Source: Calditrichaceae bacterium (GTDB taxonomy: Bacteria; Calditrichota; Calditrichia; Calditrichales; Calditrichaceae). From it: 42,072 nucleotides of DNA. Both the position numbers and the translations under genes were made by a program. The stretch is taken from assembly GCA_024762535.1 (NCBI GenBank), contig JANTHG010000003.1:1-42072 (forward strand). The letters run 5' to 3'. Below the pieces are notes generated by a model. That model did no database searches and was not told the DNA's origin. It saw only the letters and a program-made list of their open reading frames with translations. Below are positions 9,556 through 18,007 of the stretch, one piece after another. The stretch's first letter is position 1. Each line of letters begins with the position of its first letter.

Positions 9556-10341
9556 TTACGCCCTGTTTGAATTTTTTAAGGCAATGAGGGCGGCGCCATA
9601 GGCCCCCATAAGCTGCGGATATTCCGGCATGGTCACCTGCTCTCCTAATTCCTGAGTAATCATTTCCCGGATAGCCGGATTTTTAACCACCCCGCCGGAA
9701 AGCATTAACGGTGGAACCAGTCCCACACTACGGATCATGGCTACAATGCGCAAAATAAGAGAACGGTGCAATCCTTTTAAAATGGGATTCACTTCTACTC
9801 CATGAGCAATCATGGAAATAATTTCCGATTCAGCAAAAACCGTACAAGTGCTGGAAATGGCTACTTCTTCTGCGGCCGAGAGTGCTTCAACTCCCATTCT
9901 GTCCAATGGTACTCTAAGTCTTCCGGCTGTGTTTTCCAAAAACCGACCGGTCCCTGCTGCGCACTTGTCGTTCATAGCAAAATCGACAACCTGGCTGTTT
10001 TCTCCAATAATAATCACTTTACTGTCTTGTCCACCGATATCCACCAGCGTACCACCATGGCCTAATTGATTATAAACACCCGTGGCATGACAGGTAATTT
10101 CCGTTACCTTCTTTTCGGCTTGTTCGACCAGATTTCGTCCGTAACCGGTAGCTACCATAGGCAGTTCTTTACCATCAAAACCATGTTCCCGCATTAGATT
10201 AAAAAAGTGATCTACCTGATCTTCGACTCTGGGATCCGCCCCTTCCAAATGGTGCCAGATTAATTTTCCCTGTGCGTCAACGGCTGTTAATTTAACAGTT
10301 GTGGATCCCACATCTATTCCTAATGCCTTTACCTCTTCCAT
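9556..10341 (-). CDS. Acyl-CoA dehydratase activase (BadF/BadG/HgdC-type ATPase)
   Basis: GIDVGSTTVKLTAVD nucleotide-binding motif; NDKCAAGTGRFLE and ISSTCTVFAESEIISM with the two Cys expected for the bridging [4Fe-4S] cluster. Confidence 0.93.
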   Translation of the reverse strand: MEEVKALGIDVGSTTVKLTAVDAQGKLIWHHLEGADPRVEDQVDHFFNLMREHGFDGKELPMVATGYGRNLVEQAEKKVTEITCHATGVYNQLGHGGTLVDIGGQDSKVIIIGENSQVVDFAMNDKCAAGTGRFLENTAGRLRVPLDRMGVEALSAAEEVAISSTCTVFAESEIISMIAHGVEVNPILKGLHRSLILRIVAMIRSVGLVPPLMLSGGVVKNPAIREMITQELGEQVTMPEYPQLMGAYGAALIALKNSNRA

Positions 10342-10344
10342 ATA

Positions 10345-11670
10345 TTAATCCTCCAGCATTTCCATGAAAGCAGCCAAGCGGGATGCCACCTGCTCTTCCG
10401 CATAGGCACGCGGGTCGTCATGGTCGGCTTCCAGTAAAAGGGCCGGTATGTTGTATTCTTTAATCAAACGGTTGCGTTGATCCACCTGACCGATGGAATA
10501 TGGTTTACATGAACGATCTGAATGTAAAATGACACCATTGAGATCAAAGTCCTCAACCATTCGACGCATCGTATTCAGTTTATATTTTGTACCTTTGTTC
10601 AAAATCGGATAGAGGTAGGTACGTGCCATAGAGTCCAGGGGCTTATCTACATTAATAAGCGGCGCTAACTCTCCCCAGGCATTTGTATAAGTTGAAGCAA
10701 CCACGGCAATACCGCGTTCCGCCAGATATTCCGACAAATAGCGCAAGCGGTACCAGATGGGTAAGTTGTCCCAGAGTAATCGTTTTCGTTCTTTCTTAAG
10801 CGCACCGATTCCTTTTGATATTCGTTCGTCCAGTTCTTTTAATAATTGACTATAGAAATCAACGGTCGTCTTTAATCCACGCATCTCTACAATGGGCGCC
10901 ATATGAATAAATTGGTCAAATACCGAAAGAGGCGCGGGATGTTGCTTTCCCCTTCCCATAATTTCTAACCAGAGTTCTGTAGCATCTTTGCTTAACTGCA
11001 GCACCTCCTGCAATTTTTTATATTCTAATGTTTTTCCTGCTACCTGTTCCGACACAGGAATAGAATCTTCCAACTGCCGGCGTACAAACTTAATCGCATG
11101 ATCGGGTGCTTCATCATAAACAAAGGGTGTGTCAATTAATATCAGAGGAACGTTAAAATGATCTGCCAGTACGCGGTACCAATGTAAAACGGTCTGGCAA
11201 ATATTTGTACAAGCCAGCAACAAATCCGGCTTAGGAAGCTTCCCAACAGGTGTTTTTCCCGATAGCACAGACCCGATATCGGTACGGGCATAAGAGCATA
11301 TATCCCTTGAATAACCGGCGTTCTCCGCCTCTGTTGAAATATCCACAACGGCGCGCCGCGCTCCACATAACGCTCCGTGGTTTTCGGGATAAAGCACATA
11401 GTATCCCAATGCCTGTAAAATTTCTACCGGCCCTCCGGATGTTACCCAGGCCACGGGCCTGTGTCCGTTTGCATAGCGCCCCGCCAGGTAGTGGAGCGAA
11501 ATTAATTCTTTAGTACGTGCACCGATTCTCAATGGTTCGGATAAAATATCCGTTCGCCATTTAGAAGAGGAAAATGTGCTATGCTCTGCTCGTCGTCTCT
11601 GCCAGCCGAGTGCCGTTTTCCCTATAATATTCACATTTACCATATATTTCAGCGTTGCGCTCACACTCAT
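10345..11670 (-). CDS. 2-hydroxyacyl-CoA dehydratase / benzoyl-CoA reductase-like subunit (HgdB/BcrB family)
   Basis: [41 protein letters not shown]: Cys positions typical of cluster ligands. ATGA overlap with upstream gene. Confidence 0.88.
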
Positions 11671-12767
11671 CCTAATATCTCCAGAAAAGCTCCAATCCTT
11701 GTTACAATCTGATTTGACAAGGGATCATTTAAGTCGATCTCGATTTGAACCGAAGGCAAGCCGGCTGCTTTCAGTTTGGCCCGCAACCGGGGAAGATCAA
11801 ATAATTCAGGTTCACAAAACTTTACATCATAAAACACAACTCCCCTGGCATCTGTTTGGTCTGCCAACCGAAGAAGATATTGTTTACGTTCTTCAAGCGA
11901 ATTACCCCGTGTAGGATCCGGCGGAGCGTTCAGAATGCGTTCCGCCATACGTCTGAAGGGTTGCTCACTTTTCCCGGAAGCATATAATCGCCGCCCACAG
12001 CAGGCCAGGTCGTCGGCTACGACAGCAGCTCCCAACTCCGTAATTGTTGTTAATACCTCCATTGGCTCCGGAACAATTCCTGAAAGAATAATTGCTGTTC
12101 CCTTTGGATTATCGAAACCCTTACGGGACAGAACCTTTTCTGCAATTGAAATAAATGTTTCTGCCGGTAAATATTCTCGCGTGCGGACCAGATGGTAAAA
12201 AGAATAATTAGAAAGTGACACCTTTTGCCGCTTTTCGTATAATTGCCGGAGTAAATCATCGGCCTTTTCTTCACGTCGGATACAACGTAGTAATATCTCC
12301 TCAGATGGCTTTTTACCGGTTAACCCGCTCAGGTGACGGTATAATTGGCGAAATTCTTCTGTCAGAAAACGCAGGTCTTCCGGACGATTGCCACGTGGTA
12401 AATAAAGCGGGAATATGGATTGTTTCGGTTTAACAAAATCCAGCAGAATACTTCCGAAACCCTGCAGACTGTCACACGTATGGGGAACGGCTATAAAATC
12501 AGCCAAATCCAGCCCGCCCTTTTTAAGGAATGAAAGCGCATTGTGCACAATAGAACACACATACGGCTGCAGATGTGCTCCTCCATGACTTACATCCGTT
12601 CCAGGCGGCCCCCATACTTCAACCGGTAAAACATCAAACGCCCGGAACAAACTTCTCGGATAATGAATAGGGAGAACGGCCGCTATCATCCCGGAGTTTT
12701 GTTTGAAAGCTGTTATTGTTTCAATTCGATTGGGTATCGCAGGTAATTCCATCGTTTTTAGGCTCAT
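11667..12767 (-). CDS. 2-hydroxyacyl-CoA dehydratase-like second subunit (HgdB/BcrC family)
   Basis: [57 protein letters not shown]. Confidence 0.85.
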
Positions 12768-14437
12768 CCGTTTGTTTGTTGTTTTTTAATTTCGTTATCA
12801 CGCAGTGAACGTCTTAAAATTTTTCCGATTGCACTTTTAGGCAAGTCAGAACAAAATTCAATTTCTGACGGTACTTTATAGGGGGTTAAATATTGCCTGA
12901 AATATTTCTTTAATTCGTCTTCCGTTGCTTTTTCACCCTCTTTAAGCACTATAAAGACTTTTACCTTTTCGCCTTTATATGTATCCGGGATGCCAACCGC
13001 AATACCTTCTTTTACTTTGGGATGCTTGTATATTAATTCATCGATTTCGCGTGGATAGATATTAAAACCACCAACAATAATTAATTCTTTTTTACGGTCA
13101 GTAATATAAAAATATCCCTCTTCATCCATATAGCCGATATCACCGGTTAGCAGCCAGTCATCCAGCATTGTTTTTTCTGTTTCTACCGGATTCTTGTAAT
13201 AACCCTTCATCATGGTGGGTGTACGCAGGGCAATTTCACCTAATTCACCAGGGGGTAAATCACTTTTGTCTTTTAAGCTAACAATTTTTGCTTCCACATC
13301 CGGGAAGGGCAAGCCAATGCTGCCGATCTTATGTTTTCCCTCGTAAGGATTGGCCATAATAGCAGTAACCGCTTCTGTAAGACCATATCCTTCGATGGCT
13401 CGTCCATTAGTCATCTTTTCGAAATTCTCTTTGATAGCTGTTGTCAATGGCGCCGCACCTACCCAAACCGCATTTAAACTGCCAAAATCATATTTTGAAA
13501 TATTTTTAAGATTCGATAAGGCAACTAAAATAGTAGGTACAACCGCGGAAACCGTTGGTTTATATTTATGGATTGCCTTGGCCATTTCCTGTGCATTGAA
13601 TTTTGGCAACATTATGATTTCTGCACCGGCAAGAATAAAGGAATTCATGCCTACGCTCATACCATATCCATGAAAAAAGGGCAAGATGGCCAGCATGCGG
13701 TCTTCTTTTTTGAGGTGTCCCCAAACTTTTATCTGATGCGCATTTGCAACAATATTAAAATGCGAGAGCATGATTCCTTTAGCAATGCCCGTGGTGCCGC
13801 CTGAATAAATAAGAACAGCCAAATCATCCGGCTGTGCCGGATGCGGTTTAAAGTTTTCAAGGTTCCCCGTCGTTATTAATTCCCTGAAATCATAAATATC
13901 CTGCTTACTGTTTTTTAACTGCTTTTTTACAAGTTTGTTCTCGCGGATGGTCTGAACGAGACCCCGGGGAAAAGGTAAAAAATCTCCGATACGGCTATAA
14001 ATGATTTGTTTAATTGGTACCCGACTGCTCAATTCCATTATTTTTTCCAGGAACATGGGCAGAGTAATAACCGTTTTTGCTCCGGAATCATTAAAATGAA
14101 ACTCCAGTTCCGAAACCGAGTACAGGGGATTTAAGGGCACAATCACTGCACCCGCCTTAAGGGCGCCGAAGTAGGCAATCGGGTAACCGGGAAAATTAGG
14201 AAGTAAAAAGGCAATTTTATTACCCGGCTTAAGCCCCTGTTCACGAAGAGCCACCGCAAAGCGGTCGGACATTTCTTTAATCTCGCGATAAGAAAGCTGT
14301 TTGCCAAAAAAACGGCTTAACGGACGATCCGCAAATTGAGCAGCGCTTTCATCTAATAACTCATACACGGGAACCGTTGGATATTCCAAACGTTCCGGTA
14401 CTTGCTTGTCATAGAATTGCAACCAGGGCTTCGTCAT
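12764..14437 (-). CDS. AMP-dependent acyl-CoA synthetase/ligase
   Basis: LIYSGGTTGIAKGIMLSH (P-loop), EGYGLTEA, LLTGDIGYMDEEGYFYITDRKKELIIVGGFNIYPREIDE, KSAIGKILRRSLRD. Confidence 0.93.
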   Translation of the reverse strand: MTKPWLQFYDKQVPERLEYPTVPVYELLDESAAQFADRPLSRFFGKQLSYREIKEMSDRFAVALREQGLKPGNKIAFLLPNFPGYPIAYFGALKAGAVIVPLNPLYSVSELEFHFNDSGAKTVITLPMFLEKIMELSSRVPIKQIIYSRIGDFLPFPRGLVQTIRENKLVKKQLKNSKQDIYDFRELITTGNLENFKPHPAQPDDLAVLIYSGGTTGIAKGIMLSHFNIVANAHQIKVWGHLKKEDRMLAILPFFHGYGMSVGMNSFILAGAEIIMLPKFNAQEMAKAIHKYKPTVSAVVPTILVALSNLKNISKYDFGSLNAVWVGAAPLTTAIKENFEKMTNGRAIEGYGLTEAVTAIMANPYEGKHKIGSIGLPFPDVEAKIVSLKDKSDLPPGELGEIALRTPTMMKGYYKNPVETEKTMLDDWLLTGDIGYMDEEGYFYITDRKKELIIVGGFNIYPREIDELIYKHPKVKEGIAVGIPDTYKGEKVKVFIVLKEGEKATEDELKKYFRQYLTPYKVPSEIEFCSDLPKSAIGKILRRSLRDNEIKKQQTNG

Positions 14438-14749
14438 ACCATACCTCCGGAAAATTAATCTTTAAGAAATATAGGCAACTAAAATAATACATTCCAAAAT
14501 TAATTCCACACCCTGAAGCAATGGTAAGGGTATTTCCCTATCGTATCCACATCCCGGGCACACGCGGCCTATTAAAATCAACTGGATTAAATTTAAATGG
14601 ATTGTCATTTTAAAAAAGTAATGTAAAAAATATTTCTGCCGGCAACTTGTAACTTTAGTCTTCCGTATGTAACATTGCTCAGTCCGTTTCCCTGAAGAAC
14701 CAACGGTCAGATCCGATAGTATCTATTTTCATAAATTTAGGAGTTTTTT

Positions 14750-17700
14750 ATGCGTCGTATCCTGATTTCTTTATTCCTATTTCTGCCTTTTGTGTTACAA
14801 GCTGCGGGAAATAACGGTTACTACCGTTTTCCGGCACTTTATCAAAACACCATTATTTTTACTGCTGAAGGTGATTTGTGGAAGGTACCCATAACCGGTG
14901 GCAACGCTCAGCGTCTAACTACCAATCACGGCGTAGAATCAAACGCTTCCGTTTCAGCACATGGAAAATGGATTGCCTTTTCGGCCCAATACGAAGGGCC
15001 TACTGAAGTGTATGTAATGCCAATCGCGGGTGGTATTCCCAAAAGACTAACCTTCGAAGGACACCGGGCTATAGTATCCGGGTGGGCAACAGACGGCAAA
15101 GTTCTATTCAGCACATCCCGTTACTCTACGCTACCGGACAGGCAACTGGTCAAGGTAGATATAAATACACGGCAAAAGGAAATCATTCCCTTGAGTCAGG
15201 CCGATCAGGGTGCTTTTGAGCCGCAAGGAAAAACCCTCTTTTTTACGAGACGTCCGTTTCAGGGCAGCCATACTAAACGCTACAAGGGCGGTACGGCACA
15301 AAATCTCTGGAAATTTACCAGCGACAGTGCAGAAGCGATTCCCCTGACTGCTGATTATCCCGGTACCAGTAAAAATCCCATGTGGTGGAACGGTCGAATA
15401 TATTTCCTCAGTGATCGTGACAATACAATGAATATCTGGTCCATGAAGGAGGACGGTTCGGACTTAAGACAGCACACTTTTCACAAAGGGCTGGATATAA
15501 ACAGCGCGTCACTGAATAACGGACGCATCGTTTACCAGTTGCTGGCTGATTTGTTTGTGTATGATATTGCTAAGGACAGCGATAATAAACTAAATATAAA
15601 ATTAACTTCCGATTTTGACCAAATGCATGAAAAATGGGTGAAGAAGCCCATGAAATACTTAACCGCTACCCATATTTCAGCGGACGGTTCCATGGTTGCT
15701 TTAACTGCAAGAGGACAGGTGTTTGTTGCACCGGTTGAAGGTGGACGCCTGATTCGCGCGACACGGAATGAAAGCATCCGTTACCGGCAAGCACGCTTTA
15801 TGCCGGATGGTAAAACTCTGCTGGCCTTATCCGATGAAAGCGGTGAATTCGAATTCCATCGTCTTCCTGCCAACGGTGTGGGAAAGGAAGCAGTGCTCAC
15901 CCGGGATGCTGATGTGCTCCGCTACCAGGGTGTACCGGCACCGGATGGTAAAAAATTCGCCTTTACCGATAAAAATTACCGCCTGTGGGTGTACGATTTT
16001 AGTATGCATAAAGCCAAAATCCTTACTACCTCAAAAATAGAAAATTTCTACAATTTGGCCTGGTCACCAGACAGCCGCTGGCTGGCTTTTCTAAGCTTTG
16101 CGGAGAACCAATTTGCCCAAATCAAAATTTATGACAGTAAAACGGGCCGGTTTCATGATCTTACCGATGACCGCGTAAACAGTTTTAATCCAGTTTGGAG
16201 TGCCGACGGCAAATGGCTGTACTTTTTATCCCAAAGAAATTTGCACACCGTTGTACCCAGTCCCTGGGGAGAATATCAACCCGAACCGTTTCTAGATAAA
16301 ATTACTAAAATTTACATGGTGTCTTTGACGCCTGAGGTGCGTTCTCCTTTTTTGCCAGAAGATGAACTGACACGGGCTAAACTACAAATCGAAAAAGACA
16401 AGAAAAAAAGTGAAAACAAAAAAAACGAAAATGAAAAAGTAACGGTTACCATCGATTTTTCCGGTTTGCAGCAGCGGGTAATGCCGGTACCTCTACCGGC
16501 TGCCAATTACACAGATTTGGCTGTAAATAAGGAGTATCTGTTTTGGTCGGAAATCAACCGTACCGGCAAAAACAAACACATCTTGAAAGCATTAAAAATT
16601 AAGAACAAAGATATTGAAGCAAAAAAACTGGTGGATGATATCCGCGGGTTCGAGCTTTCTGCCAACGGGAAAAAAATATTAGTACGACAGAAAGAAAATC
16701 TCTTTGTTGTTGACGCCAAGGATACAGCACCGGCAAAAATCACCAAAAATAGAGTCGATTTAAAAGGCTGGACTTATTCGCTGCACCCCAAAGATGAGTG
16801 GCGTCAAATGCTGGTGGATGCCTGGCGAATGGAACGTGACTATTTTTATGATCCAAATTTACACGGTGTTAAGTATAAAGAAATCTTAGACAAATATCTT
16901 CCGTATATCGATCGCGTTACAGACCGTGATGAACTGGATGATTTAATTGGTCAGATGGTCGGTGAACTATCTGCCCTGCATACCTTTGTGGCCGGAGGCG
17001 ACAAAAGACGAAGTGAAACAAATACAAAACAGGGCTTTCTCGGAGCCGTACTGGAACATGATTTCGCAAACAAGGGTTACCGCATTGCGCATATCTACCA
17101 ATCTGATCCCAATTTTCCCGAACGCCTTGCCCCGCTTGACAAACCGGAGGTTCGTATTCCAGAAGGCGATGTAATCCGTGCGGTCAACGGCATTCCCGCT
17201 TTATCCGTAGACGATATTTCCTTGTTATTAAAAAATCAGGCCGGGAAACAGGTGTTGCTAACTTTATATTCACTAAAAAGCAAAAAGCTCTATAATAAGC
17301 TGGTTAAACCTTTCGATGCCCGGCAGGAAAGTAGTTTACGTTACAGTGAGTGGGAATATACGCGCCGGTTGCAGGTAGAGAAAGAGGGAAAAAGTGAACT
17401 GGGCTATGTACATCTGCGGGCAATGGGTGGGGGCAATTACCGCGAATGGCTTGAAAATTTTTATCCGGTAGCTAACCGCAAAGGTCTGATTATCGACGTT
17501 CGCCACAACAGAGGCGGCAATATTGACAGTTGGATTCTGGAAAAACTCCTGCGCAAAATCTGGTTCTACTGGAAACCGCGTGTGGGTAAACCTACCTGGA
17601 ATATGCAGTATGCTTTTCCTGGCCATATGGTGGTTTTATGCGACGGCTTTACGGCCTCGGATGGCGAAGCTTTTTCGGAAGGCTTCCGTAGGCTGGGTTT

Positions 17701-18007
17701 GGGTAAGGTCATCGGTACACGTACCTGGGGCGGTGAAATCTGGTTGTCCTTCAGTAATCGTTTGGTAGATATGGGCATTGCTTCTGCTGCAGAAACCGGT
17801 GTTTACGGTCCGGAGGGTAAGTGGCTGATTGAAGGACACGGCGTTGAACCGGATCGCATTGTGGATAATCTGCCTCATGCGACCTTTGAAGGAAAAGATG
17901 CTCAGTTGGAAGCGGCCATTTCATACTTACAGGAAAAAATAGCGAAGGAGCCGGTAACTATTCCACAGCCTCCGGCCTATCCGGATAAAACGGGTAAGGT
18001 AAAATAA
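14750..18007 (+). CDS. Tricorn protease-like S41 peptidase, exported
   Basis: Signal peptide; beta-propeller WD/PD40-like repeats (HGKWIAFSAQYEG, SPDSRWLAFLS, SADGKWLYFLS); tricorn core WRQMLVDAWRMERDYFYDPNLHGV; PDZ-like; S41 LIIDVRHNRGGN and CDGFTASDGEAFSEGFR. Confidence 0.92.
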   Translation: MRRILISLFLFLPFVLQAAGNNGYYRFPALYQNTIIFTAEGDLWKVPITGGNAQRLTTNHGVESNASVSAHGKWIAFSAQYEGPTEVYVMPIAGGIPKRLTFEGHRAIVSGWATDGKVLFSTSRYSTLPDRQLVKVDINTRQKEIIPLSQADQGAFEPQGKTLFFTRRPFQGSHTKRYKGGTAQNLWKFTSDSAEAIPLTADYPGTSKNPMWWNGRIYFLSDRDNTMNIWSMKEDGSDLRQHTFHKGLDINSASLNNGRIVYQLLADLFVYDIAKDSDNKLNIKLTSDFDQMHEKWVKKPMKYLTATHISADGSMVALTARGQVFVAPVEGGRLIRATRNESIRYRQARFMPDGKTLLALSDESGEFEFHRLPANGVGKEAVLTRDADVLRYQGVPAPDGKKFAFTDKNYRLWVYDFSMHKAKILTTSKIENFYNLAWSPDSRWLAFLSFAENQFAQIKIYDSKTGRFHDLTDDRVNSFNPVWSADGKWLYFLSQRNLHTVVPSPWGEYQPEPFLDKITKIYMVSLTPEVRSPFLPEDELTRAKLQIEKDKKKSENKKNENEKVTVTIDFSGLQQRVMPVPLPAANYTDLAVNKEYLFWSEINRTGKNKHILKALKIKNKDIEAKKLVDDIRGFELSANGKKILVRQKENLFVVDAKDTAPAKITKNRVDLKGWTYSLHPKDEWRQMLVDAWRMERDYFYDPNLHGVKYKEILDKYLPYIDRVTDRDELDDLIGQMVGELSALHTFVAGGDKRRSETNTKQGFLGAVLEHDFANKGYRIAHIYQSDPNFPERLAPLDKPEVRIPEGDVIRAVNGIPALSVDDISLLLKNQAGKQVLLTLYSLKSKKLYNKLVKPFDARQESSLRYSEWEYTRRLQVEKEGKSELGYVHLRAMGGGNYREWLENFYPVANRKGLIIDVRHNRGGNIDSWILEKLLRKIWFYWKPRVGKPTWNMQYAFPGHMVVLCDGFTASDGEAFSEGFRRLGLGKVIGTRTWGGEIWLSFSNRLVDMGIASAAETGVYGPEGKWLIEGHGVEPDRIVDNLPHATFEGKDAQLEAAISYLQEKIAKEPVTIPQPPAYPDKTGKVK

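Follow-up and report, generated by a model that had tools for sequence, protein, structure and literature searches.

A candidate 2-hydroxyacyl-CoA dehydratase operon with its own AMP-forming ligase in a Calditrichaceae bacterium

Contig JANTHG010000003.1 of a Calditrichaceae bacterium (GenBank assembly GCA_024762535.1) carries four closely spaced, co-directional genes for an acyl-coenzyme A (CoA) ligase, two subunits of the 2-hydroxyacyl-CoA dehydratase superfamily, and an activase. Here, we discuss this operon, which lies within the 42,072-nucleotide stretch that was analyzed (positions 1 to 42,072 of the forward strand; “the window”). The operon probably encodes a 2-hydroxyacyl-CoA dehydratase of the HadBC/HadI-like type with its own AMP-forming ligase, rather than a benzoyl-CoA-type reductase. 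A dehydratase is favored because HadB and HadC are the best matches of the two subunits by both sequence and predicted fold, because there is a single activase, and because three of the cluster ligands of the reductase subunit BzdN are absent. By sequence, the operon falls outside the HadBC equivalog, the Fld-type clusters as sampled, and the class I benzoyl-CoA reductases. It belongs to a seemingly uncharacterized branch with members in many uncultured bacterial phyla; a partial literature search found no publication describing the clade. Gene identities, residues, linkage, and co-occurrence all rest on sequence, and the function of every clade member is a prediction.

Operon organization and distribution

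All four genes are read from the minus strand: the ligase gene comes first, followed by those for the small subunit (S), the large subunit (L), and the activase. The ligase gene (12764..14437, 557 amino acids) encodes a FadD-like, AMP-forming acyl-CoA ligase with the Pfam domains AMP-binding (311 bits) and AMP-binding_C. It is followed by the HadC-like S, the putative carrier of an electron-relay cluster (11667..12767, 366 amino acids; HGD-D, 209 bits), and by the HadB-like L, the putative catalytic subunit (10345..11670, 441 amino acids; HGD-D, 245 bits). HGD-D (PF06050) is above its cutoff in both S and L, i.e., two paralogous subunits are encoded together. The last gene (9556..10341, 261 amino acids; BcrAD_BadFG, 177 bits) encodes a HadI/HgdC-like ATPase with a predicted bridging [4Fe-4S] cluster; it scores 230 bits against the acyl-CoA dehydratase activase model TIGR00241 (cutoff, 125) and is the only activase gene in the operon, with no second ATPase subunit there. 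The ligase/S and S/L junctions are ATGA overlaps, and the L/activase junction reads TAA-TAT-ATG, a 3-nucleotide gap. Open reading frames, Pfam domains, and the directly read junctions thus confirm the tightly coupled four-gene operon described in the original prediction.

The arrangement is unlikely to reflect chance, since the S-L-activase order is kept in most of the best 80 of 186 loci from a protein-guided scan of other genomes (down to 52% identity); in 17 loci, window included, the gene immediately upstream is the ligase. This trio is the constant core in about ten phyla, and the loci come from Chloroflexota, Deltaproteobacteria (broad sense), WOR-3, Desulfurellales, Myxococcota, Acidobacteriota, Actinomycetota, Spirochaetota, SAR324, and others. 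Most flanking genes (e.g., for tRNA synthetase, helicase, gyrase, and NFACT) differ from one genome to the next and carry no useful signal. Another genome of the same family as the window (G013) has the trio on a contig that ends inside S. The window's own genome assembly (317 contigs, 89% complete) yielded no further HGD-D genes beyond the operon pair.

Similarity, phylogeny, and conserved residues

L matches HadB at 223 bits (31% identity) and S matches HadC at 95 bits (21–22% identity). AlphaFold models of the two subunits (mean predicted local distance difference test score of 92.7 for S and 88.3 for L) have the same nearest neighbors: the first PDB match of S is HadC, with a template modeling (TM) score of 0.90 normalized by query, and that of L is HadB, with a TM-score of 0.92 normalized by target. 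Neither subunit reaches an NCBIfam equivalog cutoff, whether for HadB (282/750 bits) and HadC (109/700) or for BcrB (159/487), BzdO (128/449), BcrC (82/421), and BzdN (81/454). DCCP gives only 38 and 50 bits to the window subunits.

In a 74-row tree, the L sequences form a clade of 26 rows (support 100/99), as do the S sequences (26 rows, 100/100). Both clades stand apart from the HadBC, Fusobacterium (glutamate-type), and Proteus (Fld-like) pairs, and from Bzd/Mbd; YjiM branches away from both S and L. The anchors were PDB sequences, with the Fusobacterium (L119) and Proteus (L121) clusters as stand-ins; LcdAB, A. fermentans HgdAB, C. sporogenes FldBC/FldL, and BcrBC/BadDE were not among them. 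The phylogeny proposed earlier as a check therefore places the subunits in none of the characterized clades sampled (HadBC, 2-hydroxyglutarate-type, Fld-like, Bzd/Mbd, and YjiM). Although catalogued as plasmids, the Fusobacterium and Proteus records are 2.1 and 4.1 Mb long and so are apparently misfiled chromosomes.

Every sequence feature of the 2-hydroxyacyl-CoA dehydratase superfamily that was tested is present. L residues C125, C158, and C388, which align with HadB C84, C117, and C346, are kept in 63/63 relatives. S78 and E96 of L (HadB S37 and E55) are invariant in the 63 L sequences, except for one Asp at E96. The corresponding cysteines of S (C71, C98, and C318; HadC C72, C99, and C325) are kept in 64/64, and activase C127 and C166 in 51/52. 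Alignment shows no loss of a cluster cysteine, in agreement with the earlier claim that both subunits and the activase retain them. One position does differ: where HadB has Phe39 and BzdO has Trp46, the whole clade has Ala or Gly, and the Fusobacterium and Proteus relatives have Phe. This suggests that there is more room beside the cluster.

Alternative functions for the dehydratase pair

Given that Had and Fld enzymes share the proposed chemistry, the operon could serve amino-acid fermentation in their manner, i.e., amino acids would give rise to aryl or branched 2-hydroxy acids, which would be activated, dehydrated, and then reduced as an electron sink. We regard this as a possibility, though an unlikely one. 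The clade is separate from the Had, Fld, and glutamate-type enzymes and has replaced their Phe wall residue with Ala/Gly. While a Fld-like cluster in Proteus also includes a ligase, the operon has no CoA-transferase, and most loci lack acyl-CoA dehydrogenase, Etf, and 2-hydroxyacid dehydrogenase genes. Some neighborhoods do fit fermentation: an aminotransferase gene adjoins the activase-ligase pair in three closely related Chloroflexi genomes, and genes for flavin adenine dinucleotide (FAD)-linked 2-hydroxyacid oxidases lie near four trios.

A second alternative is an ATP-driven reductase of the class I benzoyl-CoA-reductase type, which would act on the ligase product by reducing either an aromatic ring or a conjugated double bond. 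These enzymes belong to the same superfamily, and S is nearly equally similar to BzdN and HadC (86 versus 95 bits). L, by contrast, is much closer to HadB than to MbdO (133 bits) or BzdO (122 bits), and groups with neither of the latter in the tree. There is only one activase in the operon; the genome's two other activase domains are both in one 1,406-amino-acid open reading frame elsewhere. Benzoate-CoA ligases rank low among the matches of the ligase, which is FadD-like. Three of the six ligands of the double-cubane [8Fe-9S] cluster of BzdN are absent: C36, C263, and C293 (as listed in PMC11971306) correspond to P33, A255, and D284 of S. This absence is not decisive, because MbdN, a real reductase subunit, is itself missing two or more of this set. 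A similar argument from the lack of BzdO His131 was downgraded, since MbdO also lacks it. Overall, we consider a reductase improbable. The original prediction had offered ATP-driven radical dehydration and ring or double-bond reduction as options following activation of a free acid; dehydration is supported, and reduction is less so.

The ligase as a partner of the dehydratase

The best NCBIfam match of the ligase is long-chain-fatty-acid--CoA ligase, at 511/1116 bits, which misses the FadD-type equivalog cutoff. The protein is 37.8% identical to E. coli FadD and falls outside the FadD branch in a ligase tree. There are several reasons to conclude that it is a real partner of the dehydratase. 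First, a ligase that is 58–70% identical lies directly upstream of the trio in the 17 loci, window included, which represent Ignavibacteriota, Thermodesulfobacteriota, WOR-3, Desulfurellales, Deferribacteres, and Chloroflexota in addition to the window itself. Second, activase and ligase genes have relocated together: in four Chloroflexi genomes (G068, G072, G074, and G166), they are side by side, away from L. Three of these genomes have an S-L pair without activase or ligase (L041, L049, and L055), and in the fourth (L035/L148) S was not recognized beside L. Two more trio genomes carry an unlinked ligase, 67% and 58% identical. Third, ligase and L co-occur. Of 249 Anaerolineae genomes, 9 have L, 6 have a ligase with 62% identity or more, and 5 have both (Fisher p ~1e-7, with a cut-off picked after seeing the data; p = 3e-5 when all 14 Anaerolineae ligases of at least 53% count). 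Fourth, the ATGA overlap would couple translation of the ligase and S. Fifth, the operon ligases form one clade (support 100/100), nested in a 98/98 clade with the ligases of activase-ligase pairs and lyase-linked ligases; generic FadD-like proteins and E. coli FadD are outside. A scan of 60 genomes related to that of the window found no close ligase; one of the 60 is G013, whose trio contig ends inside S.

An ordinary fatty-acid ligase that is merely upstream, with the dehydratase using a CoA ester made elsewhere, would suit the FadD-like family and the many trio genomes without a close ligase, but is very unlikely given the cross-phylum adjacency, relocated pairs, co-occurrence, ATGA coupling, and operon-specific clade.

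Some ligase loci have other features. The activase-ligase pairs of three closely related Chloroflexi genomes (L109:4426-12146, L110, and L111) are located between a class I/II aminotransferase gene and a radical SAM gene. In one SAR324 genome (L095:5708-6907), the gene immediately before S encodes a CaiB-type CoA-transferase instead of the ligase. Contigs C14, C88, C105, and C152 of the window's own genome have many open frames of 2,000–3,460 amino acids with weak matches to the ligase; nonribosomal peptide synthetases may therefore be abundant in this genome.

Clues to the substrate

Ligases of a sister branch point to a substrate class. This branch consists of eight ligases from genomes with no detected L, and four of these (L151, L154, L155, and L164) have a thiamine-diphosphate enzyme gene within 2 kb on the same strand. 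For the L151 neighbor, the best PDB match is the actinobacterial 2-hydroxyacyl-CoA lyase AcHACL (240 bits). For the L151, L154, and L155 neighbors, NCBIfam places 2-hydroxyacyl-CoA lyase second, behind an acetolactate synthase model, with both below cutoff. Some trios without a ligase also have lyase-like neighbors. In four related loci from Myxococcota, the gene adjoining the trio in divergent orientation encodes a different thiamine-diphosphate enzyme, its nearest PDB entries being BbmA and 2-hydroxyacyl-CoA lyase/synthase, and a third type adjoins L063. Since a 2-hydroxyacyl-CoA is the plausible intermediate shared by ligase plus dehydratase and ligase plus lyase, it is the likely substrate class. 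The original description of the substrate as unassigned still stands for the acid itself, while genome context narrows it to this class. In one locus (L156:8241-11598), a sister ligase (55%) directly precedes a tyrosine phenol-lyase gene that exceeds its curated cutoff.

A bulky, branched, or long-chain aliphatic acid, with a product suited to β-oxidation, is weakly favored, based on the FadD-like ligase, the Ala/Gly pocket residue, and the β-oxidation genes of the host, whose genome carries acyl-CoA dehydrogenases and 3-hydroxyacyl-CoA dehydrogenases. An amino-acid-derived acid is also possible, because of the aminotransferase and 2-hydroxyacid-oxidase neighbors in a few genomes.

Proposed mechanism and significance

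HgdAB and HadBC use ATP-driven one-electron transfer to form a thioester ketyl radical that loses the 2-hydroxyl, with recycling of the electron (PMC8473912, PMC11574389). By analogy, the ligase would activate a free 2-hydroxy acid, converting ATP to AMP and yielding a 2-hydroxyacyl-CoA. The activase, predicted to dimerize, would be reduced by ferredoxin or flavodoxin and, with ATP, would inject one electron into the S cluster. From S, the electron would pass to the [4Fe-4S] cluster of L, presumably held by C125, C158, and C388 with one open iron. The thioester would then become a ketyl radical and expel the 2-hydroxyl to give a 2-enoyl-CoA, with the electron recycled over many turnovers. As no dedicated downstream enzyme is linked to the operon, the enoyl-CoA probably enters general β-oxidation.

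Some observations weigh against a dehydratase with a dedicated ligase. About half of the trios have no ligase, and many trio genomes have no close ligase anywhere. Most loci lack a linked 2-hydroxyacid dehydrogenase or enoyl-CoA reductase. The lyase adjacency is seen for sister ligases, not for the operon clade, and the enzymes concerned are below the NCBIfam lyase cutoff. Finally, members from Myxococcota, Acidimicrobiia, and SAR324, lineages often thought to be aerobic, fit oddly with an oxygen-sensitive enzyme.

We tentatively suggest a broader role, one that we consider possible though doubtful: a widespread anaerobic salvage of free long-chain or branched 2-hydroxy acids, in which a ligase and a radical dehydratase produce an enoyl-CoA for β-oxidation in two steps. 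Such a route would be an alternative to that of 2-hydroxyacyl-CoA lyase, and would mean that many uncultured phyla use ketyl-radical dehydration for purposes other than amino-acid fermentation. Most knowledge of such dehydratases comes from anaerobes that ferment amino acids (PMC8473912, PMC11574389). This chemistry may have a broader environmental role, judging from the conserved, ligase-bearing clade that occurs in Calditrichota, Ignavibacteriota, WOR-3, Desulfurellales, Chloroflexota, Thermodesulfobacteriota, and others. The ligase also offers a simple handle: a routine aerobic ligase assay could probably identify its substrate, and with it that of the dehydratase.

Genomic surroundings

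The region 5′ of the ligase gene (14438..14749, minus strand) has a GGAGG (14444-14448) six bases 5′ of the ligase ATG, and a weak promoter-like site; a promoter scan of the region gave scores no better than shuffles. Rfam, promoter, and terminator scans yielded nothing useful. The divergent neighboring gene (14750-18007) encodes a tricorn-protease-like protein with S41 peptidase, tricorn C1, and PDZ domains. Elsewhere in the genome, the 1,406-amino-acid open reading frame on contig C5 (L115:189-4409) has DUF2229 and two BcrAD_BadFG domains and is PlsA-type plasmalogen synthase-like, so the genome may make ether lipids. A plasmalogen or ether-lipid role for the operon was rejected, as no link to this separate gene was found. 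In Desulfurellales (L039:5019-11205 and L051:8704-14982), an Fe-alcohol dehydrogenase gene follows the operon on the opposite strand, with genes for an aldehyde dehydrogenase, a short-chain dehydrogenase/reductase (SDR), and an HpaB-family protein nearby; this neighborhood could be involved in 4-hydroxybutyrate metabolism.

Comparison with known systems

The best sequence and fold match of the window subunits is the (R)-2-hydroxyisocaproyl-CoA dehydratase of Clostridioides difficile, HadBC/HadI, which shares the two HGD-D subunits, the single activase, the Ser/Glu pair, and all cluster cysteines. It differs in belonging to another clade, in having Phe39 rather than Ala/Gly, and in using a CoA-transferase, HadA, where the window has a ligase. 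The original prediction treated a ligase as unusual because known 2-hydroxyacyl-CoA dehydratases usually use a CoA-transferase. However, the Fld-like cluster of Proteus mirabilis, taken here to represent the Fld-type phenyllactate dehydratases, provides a precedent, combining a CoA ligase with an activase and two dehydratase subunits. Thus, free-acid activation by a dedicated ligase is supported, but is not peculiar to this operon type. The Proteus gene order is ligase, type III CoA-transferase, activase, L, S, permease, acyl-CoA dehydrogenase, and two Etf genes. Fld-type clusters are marked by CoA-transferase, acyl-CoA dehydrogenase, and Etf genes beside HadBC-type subunits. Apart from the activase and the subunits, the ligase is all that the window operon shares with the Proteus cluster: the CoA-transferase, permease, acyl-CoA dehydrogenase, and Etf genes are extra, the Proteus ligase is only 29% identical, and the Proteus subunits group with HadBC. 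The 2-hydroxyglutaryl-CoA dehydratase cluster of Fusobacterium likewise has an activase and two HGD-D subunits, but groups with HadBC, has no ligase, and includes genes for a glutamate symporter and a carboxyltransferase-domain (glutaconyl-CoA decarboxylase-like) protein.

Class I benzoyl-CoA reductases (Bzd, Mbd) share the superfamily and act on a CoA ester formed by a ligase; they are less similar, have two unlike ATPase subunits rather than one activase, and in the Bzd type include a double-cubane ligand set that is missing here. Lastly, the lyase-HCL cluster of Actinomycetospora, which acts on 2-hydroxyisobutyrate, is a characterized arrangement of ligase and lyase (PMC7176365). It too pairs a ligase with an enzyme that consumes 2-hydroxyacyl-CoA, and sisters of the window ligase adjoin AcHACL-like lyases. 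The likeness to the cluster of HCL (465 amino acids) is one of arrangement, with a lyase in the position that a radical dehydratase probably occupies in the window.

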